Positions 12,038 through 14,946 of a stretch of 64,000 nt of DNA are shown here, piece after piece; positions within the stretch are counted from its first letter, which is position 1, and each line of letters starts with the position of its first letter. The DNA is from Alphaproteobacteria bacterium (lineage in GTDB: Bacteria; Pseudomonadota; Alphaproteobacteria; Caulobacterales; Maricaulaceae): the NCBI GenBank assembly GCA_024742735.1, contig JANSXV010000003.1, positions 248,001 to 312,000 of the forward strand. The letters are read 5' to 3'. Below the pieces are notes generated by a model that worked only from the letters and a program-made list of their open reading frames with translations, did no database searches and was not told the origin of the DNA. Both the position numbers and the translations under genes were made by a program.

Positions 12038-12829
12038 TTGATTAACTTAGAAGAAGTATTCCGACTCTCCGGGGTGCCAACCCACACGTTTGTCGCGCCA
12101 CAGCAATTTCGCGCGATTAAAGTCGCGCTTCGCACCCCTGGGCGATGTTTGGTGCTAGAGGGTCCATCCGGGATCGGGAAGACGAGTACAATTGTTAAGG
12201 GCCTCGAAGCAATTGGTGCGCAAGCAGATGCCCTGAATTTATCTGCTCGAAAGCAAAGAGACGTTGAGATAATCGCTTCGCTTCCCGAGATGGATTCGAT
12301 TGGAACAGTGGTGATCGACGACTTCCATAGACTCGATATCGATGTTAAAAATAAAATTTCTGATTTCATGAAGGTGCTTGCAGATTCGGAAGATGAAAGC
12401 TCAAAACTGATATTAGTAGGAATCAATAAAGCCGGAAATCAGCTAATCGACTATGCAACAGACCTCGGTCTTCGTGTCGATTTCTTTAAGCTAGAGTCAA
12501 ATTCAGAAGAAAAAATATTAGATTTAATAGATCTTGGAGAGTCTGCGCTAAACATTAGCATAAATTCGAAAAATGATATCGCAAGAAGGTCTCATGGTAG
12601 CTTTCATATAGCGCAGCTGTTGTGTCATTATGCCTGTTTAGAGGCTGATATCACTGAGACTTCTGAGCAGAAGCATTCAGTTGAAGCATCGGTCGATCTT
12701 GTCGTTGATCGAGTAATGGACACATTCTCACGACAGTTCATGACGCCATCCTTAGAGTTTGCCAGAGGCTCGAAGATCCGTCGAGAAGGCAGAGCACCTT
12801 ATCTTCACGTTCTTAAATGGTTAGCCTAA
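12038..12829 (+). CDS. ATPase half of the broken ATPase-TIR gene
   Basis: A 263-residue open part with complete Walker A and B motifs and a sensor-like LILVGINKAGN strand, as in AAA/STAND ATPases. It stops at TAA after HVLKWLA. The downstream sequence continues in the same frame (SEDWSLDLREAI), so the stop looks like a nonsense change in a longer protein; GAA to TAA would explain it. TTG 12038 is the first usable start after an in-frame TAA at 12002. If translated alone it would be an ATPase without effector. Confidence 0.7.
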   Translation: MINLEEVFRLSGVPTHTFVAPQQFRAIKVALRTPGRCLVLEGPSGIGKTSTIVKGLEAIGAQADALNLSARKQRDVEIIASLPEMDSIGTVVIDDFHRLDIDVKNKISDFMKVLADSEDESSKLILVGINKAGNQLIDYATDLGLRVDFFKLESNSEEKILDLIDLGESALNISINSKNDIARRSHGSFHIAQLLCHYACLEADITETSEQKHSVEASVDLVVDRVMDTFSRQFMTPSLEFARGSKIRREGRAPYLHVLKWLA

Positions 12830-12844
12830 AGTGAAGATTGGTCT

Positions 12845-13402
12845 TTGGATCTCCGTGAAGCAATTCGAACGAATCCAGATCATAAAGGTAGCGTTGGTCA
12901 GATTGTTGAAAAGGGTCACCTTCAGGGCATGTTGGCTGAGAAAGATGCTCTAATTGGTGCCCATTTTCACTATGAGACTTCAACAGCGATACTTAGTGTT
13001 GAGGATCCAAAGCTAATCTTCTTCCTAAGGAATATTGGATGGAGAAATTTTGCGAAACGTGTCGGATACACTACTGACTACTTTAAGGGACAACACGATA
13101 TCGCACTCTCTTTTGCTGGAGCCAATCGCGATATTGCGAGTAAATTTTTCGATTTCTTGATGGAAAGAGAAGTTACGGTATTTTATGATGAGAATGAACA
13201 GCACAGAATAGTTTCGGTTAGCGTCGAGGACTATCTCGCACCTATCTACAAGACTGAAGCACAGTTTGTTGTTGCGCTTCTTTCTCCGGAATACCCAACA
13301 CGCATATGGACCAAGTTTGAAAGCGATATATTTCGCCAGAGATTTGGGGAGGGCGCTGTAATACCTGTGAAGTTTTCGAATTTAGTGCCTGGATTTTTTT
13401 AA
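12845..13402 (+). CDS. TIR-domain half of the broken ATPase-TIR gene
   Basis: 185 residues from TTG 12845. Residues 1-80 look like the end of an ATPase or winged-helix linker. From about residue 85 the TIR fold is clear: DIALSFAGANRDIA (first strand and BB-loop region), VTVFYDENEQHRI, YLAPIYKTEAQFVVALLS, and IWTKFESDIFRQRFG, whose Glu is at the usual NADase position. No convincing ribosome site precedes it, favouring a fragment over a separate gene. The reading ends early at GFF* because of a seven-T run; the next frame supplies a plausible TIR C-terminus. Confidence 0.7.
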   Translation: MDLREAIRTNPDHKGSVGQIVEKGHLQGMLAEKDALIGAHFHYETSTAILSVEDPKLIFFLRNIGWRNFAKRVGYTTDYFKGQHDIALSFAGANRDIASKFFDFLMEREVTVFYDENEQHRIVSVSVEDYLAPIYKTEAQFVVALLSPEYPTRIWTKFESDIFRQRFGEGAVIPVKFSNLVPGFF

Positions 13403-13706: not shown

Positions 13707-13736
13707 ATCCCGGACACCGCTTCGCGGTTCCGGGAT
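13707..13736. repeat. REP-like hairpin
   Basis: ATCCCGGA-c-ACCGC-TTC-GCGGT-TCCGGGAT, followed by GACA, is a 13-bp hairpin with one bulge. The same outer arms recur in the intergenic element at 26108-26252, so this is probably a dispersed palindromic repeat. Confidence 0.55.
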
Positions 13737-14200
13737 GACAGGGAGGGGAAACTCACCACTTATCCCCGCCCCCTCATACCGCCCCTACACTCCCACCCCT
13801 TCCACCTCGCCAAGGCGGCGGTCGCGACGCGTCATGATCGGGGGTGGGGGCGGTGTCTGTCCGGTGCGCCGCTTCAGCGTGGGAAATCCCGTGCTGGATG
13901 CGGGGCGGCGGCCGGGCGGAGATGTGTGAGGTCGAAATCCTGGCGAAGCAAGCCCAAACCGGCCGATGGCTCGATCCCTTGGTAACGGGGGGAGCTGAGG
14001 GCGGCGAAGCGCGCCATACCCGTCAGGCTATAGTGACCGTAAGGTATCGGCCCTCATGTCAGCACCGGGTGCGGGCGGCCTGTCCGGCCACTTGAACTTT
14101 CGCAATTGCGTTCGGCCCAAGGGCCGCCCGCGCCGACCGTCCGTTTCAACCGCTCGTGCTCCGGCGCAGGGCGGGGTTTTGGCGTGCGTGTTGGATGTCT
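13737..14200. other. gene-free stretch with a long inverted repeat
   Basis: No open frame here looks coding. GCGGGCGGCC (14071-14080) pairs perfectly with GGCCGCCCGC (14122-14131). The 41-nt interior has its own palindrome CGCAATTGCG and a second GGCC pair. It could be a structured RNA, a recombination remnant or a repeat element. I found no match to tmRNA, RNase P, SRP or 6S RNA signatures. Confidence 0.35.
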
Positions 14201-14287
14201 TCTCTTTCCCAGCGAAAGCTGGGAGCCAGATCATCGGGGGTCGGCGGCTTGTGATCCACTTGGCCCCAACTTTCGTTGGGGAAGAGA
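14201..14287. repeat. hairpin-pair repeat unit A (upstream of GIY-YIG gene)
   Basis: The left hairpin CCCAGC-GAAA-GCTGGG and right hairpin CCCCAAC-TTTC-GTTGGGG face each other across about 35 nt, bounded by TCTCTTTCC and GGGAAGAGA. The ends are inverted copies, so the unit resembles a paired REP/BIME-like element. Confidence 0.8.
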
Positions 14288-14317
14288 CGGGTTGGAGTTC
14301 GGCTTCAGTCCTTCTCC

Positions 14318-14402
14318 TTCTCTTCCCAGCGAAAGCTGGGAGCCAGAGAGGCGGACGTCAGGGCGTGAGATGCCTGGGCCCCAGCTTTCGCTGGGGAAGA
14401 GA
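14318..14402. repeat. hairpin-pair repeat unit B (upstream of GIY-YIG gene)
   Basis: Same design as unit A: CCCAGC-GAAA-GCTGGG on the left and CCCCAGC-TTTC-GCTGGGG on the right, bounded by TTCTCTTCC and GGGGAAGAGA. Only the interior spacer differs from unit A. It ends 41 bases before the likely GIY-YIG start. Confidence 0.8.
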
Positions 14403-14443
14403 AAAAGATTGCATTGTTCGTCATAAATCCCCTGAATGGGGAA

Positions 14444-14743
14444 ATGCGTGAGCGTCCGTTTCAGCCTGCCGTGTATATCCTCGCCAGCCGGCGGAACGGG
14501 ACGCTGTATTGCGGCTCCACCGGCGATCTGATCCGGCGGGTGTGGGAGCATCGCGAGGGTGTGGGTTCGCCCTTCACCGCAAAGTACGGCTTGCGCCTTC
14601 TGGTCTGGTACGAGTTCCACGGCGAGATGGGCGGCGCGATCCAGCGTGAGTATCGCATCAAGGCGTGGCGGCGCGCCTGGAAGCTCCATCTGATCGAGGC
14701 GGAGAATCCCCGCTGGCGCGATCTGTATGAGGATTTGCTTTAG
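14444..14743 (+). CDS. small GIY-YIG nuclease family protein
   Basis: A 99-residue single-domain GIY-YIG protein from ATG 14444. A TTG at 14414 would add ten residues, but partly from repeat-adjacent DNA. The signature reads VYILASRRNGTLYCGSTGDL (GIY as VYI, YIG as YCG), then RRVWEHREG with the conserved Arg and a later Glu in IQREYRIKAWRR. The fold cleaves DNA; standalone bacterial members of this size mostly lack a known role. It lies between two upstream and two downstream copies of one hairpin-pair repeat, an arrangement reminiscent of REP elements with their RAYT transposase. A role in spreading the repeats is inference. Confidence 0.85.
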   Translation: MRERPFQPAVYILASRRNGTLYCGSTGDLIRRVWEHREGVGSPFTAKYGLRLLVWYEFHGEMGGAIQREYRIKAWRRAWKLHLIEAENPRWRDLYEDLL

Positions 14744-14756
14744 GGGTCGTCATTCC

Positions 14757-14841
14757 TCTCTTTCCCAGCGGAAGCTGGGACCCAGATCGTCAGACGCAGG
14801 TGTTCGAAATCTCTGGGCCCCAACCTGCGTTGGGGAAGAAA
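14757..14841. repeat. hairpin-pair repeat unit C (downstream of GIY-YIG gene)
   Basis: Left hairpin CCCAGC-GGAA-GCTGGG and right hairpin CCCCAAC-CTGC-GTTGGGG. It is nearly identical along its length to unit D, including the interior GTCAGACGCAGGTGTTCG, so C and D are a recent duplication. It begins 13 bases after the GIY-YIG stop. Confidence 0.85.
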
Positions 14842-14861
14842 AAGAACCCGACGAACCACCC

Positions 14862-14946
14862 CTCTTTCCCAGCGGAAGCTGGGACCCAGATCGTCAGACG
14901 CAGGTGTTCGAAATCTCTGGGCCCCAACTTTCGTTGGGGAAGAGAG
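14862..14946. repeat. hairpin-pair repeat unit D
   Basis: An 85-nt near-copy of unit C after a 20-nt spacer, with right hairpin CCCCAAC-TTTC-GTTGGGG. It ends 12 bases before the stop of the convergent amidohydrolase gene and could also act as its terminator. Confidence 0.85.

Follow-up and report, generated by a model that had tools for sequence, protein, structure and literature searches.

The window, by which we mean the whole stretch of 64,000 nucleotides that was analysed, contains a small gene encoding a GIY-YIG nuclease, placed between hairpin-pair units. An earlier note on this DNA had described two such units 5' and two 3' of a 99-residue GIY-YIG gene, and this layout was confirmed by the open reading frame, by folding and by motif counts. 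The outer limits given there (14201-14946) were correct to within a few bases. The features are the following:

14202..14287, + strand: hairpin-pair unit 1, head-to-head (half-sites 14202-14229 and 14259-14286)
14319..14402, + strand: hairpin-pair unit 2 (half-sites about 14319-14346 and 14374-14401)
14444..14743, + strand: GIY-YIG nuclease gene, 99 aa (open reading frame and Pfam PF01541)
14758..14841, + strand: hairpin-pair unit 3 (half-sites 14758-14785 and 14813-14840)
14862..14945, + strand: hairpin-pair unit 4 (half-sites 14862-14889 and 14917-14944)

The open reading frame begins with an ATG at 14444, its stop codon ends at 14743 and the 99 residues comprise one GIY-YIG domain. The assignment to the GIY-YIG superfamily is carried by the Pfam match (PF01541, E 3.6e-12, 46.9 bits with a cut-off of 22.6), by conserved residues and by the AF2 model and its Foldseek matches. 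Numbered as in P0001, without the start methionine, residues Y10, Y21 and E68 are present in 81/81 homologues, H35 in 80/81 and R31 in 79/81; the two tyrosines, the arginine and the glutamate are positions which we take to be catalytic in the GIY-YIG fold. The AF2 model has a pLDDT of 94.2, and Foldseek related it to UPF0213 (E 9e-4), Slx1 (E 0.01) and the UvrC N-domain (E 0.14). The UPF0213 proteins (PDB 1zg2 and 1ywl) are the nearest solved relatives by sequence or fold, the sequence match being weak (E 1.7e-5 and 0.14). NCBIfam gave 0 matches for the window protein. Two identities considered for the gene were rejected, namely an anti-phage defence gene, since PADLOC gave no match up to E 1, and a phage origin, since there were 0 matches in phage records and 0 in PHROGs. 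In IMG/VR contigs, which may be host DNA, 43 relatives were found.

Each unit is built of the tag CTCTT, a stem of 6-7 bp, a 4-nt loop, the returning stem, NCCAG, about 30 bases and an inverted partner, the stem of which differs from the first in at least one pair. Unit 4 is 96% identical to unit 3 over 85 nt, and the left half of unit 2 is one base short, so that the CTCTT half-site pattern missed it. When folded as single-stranded DNA each unit beat 200 of 200 shuffles (z -4.2 to -6.9). Allowing three mismatches, the stem motif has 19 matches in the window (5.3 expected; 11 at most in 100 shuffles), and allowing two it is found at seven places, all of them at the GIY-YIG gene. The searches of the whole genome used patterns that could miss more decayed copies: the CTCTT half-site with up to one mismatch gave 8 matches, seven at the gene and an eighth belonging to a fifth hairpin pair on another contig (L008), and a looser stem pattern gave 6, five of them at the gene.

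The genome also encodes a paralogue, a second small GIY-YIG gene with a 132-codon open frame (L003, 1320-1900) which, as read by eye, is bracketed by a different hairpin family having CCCGG stems and AATTCCC tags. Stretches resembling this family also adjoin, again by eye, the fifth window-type unit (L008). Upstream of the cassette, at 12038-13402, an ORF with a TIR domain (PF13676, over the cut-off) and a second ORF with weak, sub-threshold AAA/P-loop matches are possibly a defence or signalling pair. A palindrome at 13707-13739 with a CCGGGATGAC end resembles a half-unit of another CGTC-type REP family.

Repeats bracketing the homologous genes

The flanking bias across homologues, on which the earlier note had staked its idea, is present. 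Bracketing was scored within flanks of 300 bases as an exact direct or inverted repeat of at least 15 nt across the gene, with positions of the same locus as controls. The first sample comprised the best 80 other matches to the window protein among 99 genomes of the same order (its own included); with L106 left out for its short flank and the window locus added, 54/80 loci share such a repeat between their flanks, against 1/400 control positions. The remaining 26/80 have no 15-nt repeat common to both flanks. A second, independent sample of named genomes, across phyla, was drawn from at least 473 relatives in GTDB genomes, of which the best 80 were taken (L382 left out), and here 42/79 loci share a flank repeat, against 1/395 controls. 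It is made up mostly of Pseudomonadota; Elusimicrobia, Chloroflexi, Hydrogenedentota, Planctomycetaceae and Desulfobacteraceae are among the titles of the other bins. Many of these genomes are metagenome bins, so that an individual phylum label could be in error. The IMG/VR contigs gave 25/38 against 2/190 controls, the viral loci L265, L270, L284, L285 and L293 being left out of this count.

In a plasmid collection, 12 of the 33 records were read by eye, and 10/12 have hairpins on both sides of the gene; the Photobacterium and Rhizobium tumorigenes records have them downstream only. Two records filed there as gonococcal plasmids, L250 and L251 (NZ_CP119140.1 and NZ_CP119142.1), are 2.17 Mb each and for that reason are probably mislabelled chromosomes. 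In the second sample, seven Pseudomonas homologues with 61-65% identity (L306, L307, L309, L314, L322, L327 and L328) share no flank repeat longer than 9 nt, and may represent a branch whose repeats were lost or which took another role. The family as a whole occurs in 76/99 genomes (own included), many of which encode several paralogues. At L141, downstream of an amidohydrolase, a putative and more distant GIY-YIG gene was seen by eye between CTCATCCTGAGG...CTTCGAGAC repeats, which are a different repeat.

Repeat type, protein clade and number of units

Loci were scored as sharing repeat words when they had at least three 11-mers in common; the pairs were taken between different genomes, and 66 pairs with shared outer context were removed. 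At 45-50% protein identity 113/1135 locus pairs (10%) share repeat words, and the share rises to 24/79 at 60-65%, 22/36 at 65-70% and 25/26 at 70% or more. For paralogues within one genome the corresponding counts are 7/37 (35-55% identity), 4/9 (55-70%) and 6/6 (above 70%). A Mantel test in which the shared-context pairs were still included gave a rho of 0.19 (null sd 0.027, 500 permutations). Moreover, most compared pairs of clade members do not share their outer neighbourhood. The repeat type follows the protein, and not the genome or the neighbourhood.

The tags sort by protein clade, and include CTCTT, CGTTT, CGTCA, TGTCA, CGCTCA, CGCCT and others; many clades have a CCA-type tail, and other tails occur at some loci. 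CTCTT belongs to clade 1, that of the window, with loci in G000, G003, G005 (two) and G026, CGTTT to clade 2, and CGTCA and TGTCA to clades 3 and 4. The hairpin finder reported no hairpin at 12/81 loci. Stem pairing was assessed with the tag and NCCAG as the only anchors. In clade 1 all 14/14 distinct stem-loops are paired over the full seven positions, four of which show changes on both sides; in clade 2, 15-16/16 stems are paired at each position in G052 and 15-17/18 in the other loci. In these best-sampled clades the tags are constant and the stems vary with compensatory substitution. Since pairing is kept despite the change of stem, it is the tag and the hairpin shape, and not the stem sequence, that stay with the protein. 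Across many bacteria a given version of the enzyme is found with a matching hairpin of its own, so that the two resemble a lock and its key.

Half-units were also counted over the 99 genomes, the clades being delimited by protein identity and nothing else (clade 1, at least 70% to the window protein; clade 2, at least 72% to L047; clade 4, at least 63% to L082). A reversed control pattern had 0 matches in any of the 99 genomes. Genomes with the clade 1 gene have 8, 258, 21 and 20 clade 1 half-units; among those without it 84/95 have none and 11/95 are positive, the maximum being 28 (G042), followed by G008 with 21, G072 with 11 (these carry CGCTT, one mismatch), G002 with 10 and G007 with 8. 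For clade 2 the genomes with the gene have 8, 57, 4, 89, 16 and 71 half-units, and without it 86/93 have none and 7/93 are positive, with a maximum of 16; a threshold of 70% adds one genome, G005, which has 0 half-units. The 16 clade 2 half-units of G001 are found in a genome with 0 matches to the window protein, and G026 has 9 without a clade 2 gene. Clade 4 units were found in 5/9 genomes with the gene (15, 10, 3, 7 and 4) and in 3/90 without; an equally similar clade 4 protein is encoded in G022, G026, G046 and G076, which have none of the clade 4 units.

The earlier note had tied the abundance of the repeats to the gene. This stood in so far as units are more numerous where the clade gene is present, and gave way in that some gene-less genomes hold units. 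Within the genus, clade 1 units occur in 3/3 genomes with the gene and in 6/12 without it, for which a Fisher test was not significant (p 0.23) and a Mann-Whitney test gave a p of 0.015; the p-values of these presence tests ignore relatedness, the genomes not being independent. The gene-less genomes with units and the weak contrast within the genus tell most against units depending strictly on the gene. The units in gene-less genomes may be relics left after loss of the gene.

Genomic positions and the proposed function of the cassette

The functional link proposed in the earlier note proved to be a real, general and protein-clade-specific pairing of gene and units; that the enzyme also spreads or copies the units, as the note further supposed, is conjecture. 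In the syntenic pairs compared, no empty site with a clean junction or a target duplication was seen. As for the window cassette, the amidohydrolase next to it is kept in several congeneric genomes, the neighbourhood of this amidohydrolase is not, and no empty site was found. The comparison of G027 with G052, the recR spacer and the other syntenic pairs showed presence and absence with no precise junction. Read by eye, the recR spacer contains the gene together with clade 2 units in G011 and G006, one unit alone in G009, a fragment of a half-unit in G001 and a REP of another type in G012. The clade 4 gene has the same neighbours in G008 (L081) as in G007 and G014 (L075 and L082), but in G008 the gene segment between the units is inverted.

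Two further loci deserve mention. Beside the amidohydrolase stop codon, L148 has a fused palindrome in which the left half of a clade 2 hairpin is joined to the right half of the partner hairpin, as would result if the central part of a unit were lost. Between L171 (18560-18760) and L126 (G052/G027) a clade 2 unit and the stretch that follows it are near-identical over about 100 bp, in surroundings of 1.9 kb at 88% identity.

On contig C1 of G052, 70/71 clade 2 half-units lie within 0.04-1.91 Mb and the last one is in the other third, where the GC skew of 20 samples seems to place the origin. The binomial p for this clustering is about 6e-12, which refers to one genome only and is overstated because half-units come in pairs. 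A strand bias of these units was considered and rejected (35 forward and 36 reverse, mostly in head-to-head pairs).

We are inclined to suggest, with a probability of roughly 0.7, that gene and units form a two-part cassette, selfish or semi-domesticated and similar to a REPtron, in which the flanking hairpin is the substrate of the nuclease and the GIY-YIG enzyme would take the place of the transposase. The enzyme would read the unpaired tags (CTCTT at the 5' side, CCAG at the 3' side) of a hairpin whose stem has about 7 bp and whose loop has 4 nt, and would nick at this tagged hairpin, most likely in single-stranded form, such as could arise on the lagging strand, during repair or in incoming DNA. 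If cleavage drives their spread, units would multiply and scatter where the cognate enzyme is active and linger once the gene is lost, and the cassette itself would turn up at different places in related species.

A serious competitor, to which we give somewhat less than an even chance, is a domesticated role: the scattered hairpins would serve the nuclease in controlling recombination or transformation, no spreading being involved and the units having multiplied otherwise. Incoming or displaced single strands would then be cut, and the units kept as recombination arms. The Neisseria nuclease Ssn reportedly modulates natural transformation, and GIY-YIG enzymes are hydrolases that cut and are not known to have a strand-transfer step. 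The inversion in G008 is also what would be expected from recombination between bracketing inverted units. However, the clade-specific abundance of the units and their mostly non-syntenic positions fit a moving element, and a patchy presence (76 of the 99 genomes), with several paralogues in many of them, is unlike a core function.

It is improbable that mobilisation of the repeats is due to a different enzyme, RAYT or IS, with the GIY-YIG gene as a passenger in repeat-rich intergenic space. Units do lie far from the gene as well, and Y1 (PF01797) matches were found in 20/99 genomes overall and, for the control rings, in 5/14; among transposases the search covered the Y1 family. Nevertheless, neither the 15 genomes of the genus (0/15) nor G026, G027, G041 and G052 gave a match to the Y1 transposase, the repeat type tracks the GIY-YIG protein clade across genomes, and control positions at the same loci are almost never bracketed. 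RAYT as the mobiliser was not supported within the genus. A reading of the hairpins as plain terminators or mRNA stabilisers next to the gene is very hard to believe, as the gene is flanked on either side by head-to-head pairs whose unpaired tags are specific to the clade, and termination would leave the match to the protein clade unexplained.

Comparison with known repeat systems

The cassette which we favour resembles the REP/REPIN-RAYT (TnpA-REP) systems in that a small nuclease-type gene is bracketed by cognate hairpins in inverted pairs, and in the occurrence of several repeat types per genome and of scattered units. The comparison with REP elements and RAYT made in the earlier note was apt as regards layout. 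The differences are that the window enzyme is a GIY-YIG and not an HUH (Y1) protein, and that the tag is CTCTT and not GTAG.

One of the closest systems is that of Neisseria. The earlier note knew of no established description of such a pairing, and none of the papers listed for GIY-YIG genes with REPs or repeats gives one in its title or abstract start, but one probably exists: a 2025 paper in Nature Communications is said to describe Ssn, a single-strand-specific GIY-YIG nuclease of Neisseria acting on the NTS repeat, with thousands of homologues of matched specificities and hundreds of NTS copies. The gonococcal homologue of the window protein, which we take to be the published Ssn, shows 55% identity over 94 residues, and its gene is placed between hairpin pairs of the type GTCATTCCCGC...GCGGGAAT, with the layout of CGTC REPs. 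Like Ssn, the window protein is a GIY-YIG nuclease of the class of about 95-100 aa, homologous to it over nearly the full length, and it too has a cognate repeat in its genome, there in few copies. The window units differ from NTS in their tag (CTCTT and not CGTC), in their stem and in number, with five pairs found in the genome, four of them at the gene, against the hundreds reported for NTS. If the Ssn paper does describe this system, the pairing itself is already known. What the present analysis adds is that the unpaired tags, and not the stem, stay with the protein, that the repeat type follows the clade across genera, and that the GIY-YIG family can be tied to the CGTC REP superfamily.

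The CGTC REPs are described as having the tag CGTC, TGTC or CCTC, a stem of 8-9 bp, a 4-5 nt loop and a CCA tail, and as forming mostly head-to-head dimers; they occur mainly in alpha-Proteobacteria, include dRS3 of Neisseria and apparently have no dedicated transposase (Di Nocera et al. 2013, PMC3733652). The passages on CGTC REPs in that paper name no GIY-YIG gene. The window units share the CCA tail, the 4-nt loop, the head-to-head dimers and the unpaired tag, and the units of clades 3 and 4 carry CGTC/TGTC itself; the tags of the window clade, CTCT(T), and of clade 2, CGTT(T), and the stem of 7 bp are different.

It is tempting to go further and to see in the GIY-YIG nucleases the mobilisers that the CGTC-type REP superfamily as a whole has seemed to lack, with every clade recognising its own tag and hairpin, cutting it in single-stranded DNA and thereby causing unit spread and cassette movement. 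This extension is tentative, and we rather doubt that it holds in full. With an enzyme family that tracks CGTC-type repeats at the level of both clade and tag, the open question of their mobiliser can be put to a direct test, and the matched tags and enzymes, in all the variety that nature provides, may offer a specificity code for single-strand cutters. Should the extension be true, enzyme and repeat would form a partnership of a third kind, beside RAYT-REPIN, and the CTCTT and CGTTT classes would extend the CGTC superfamily past its published tag.
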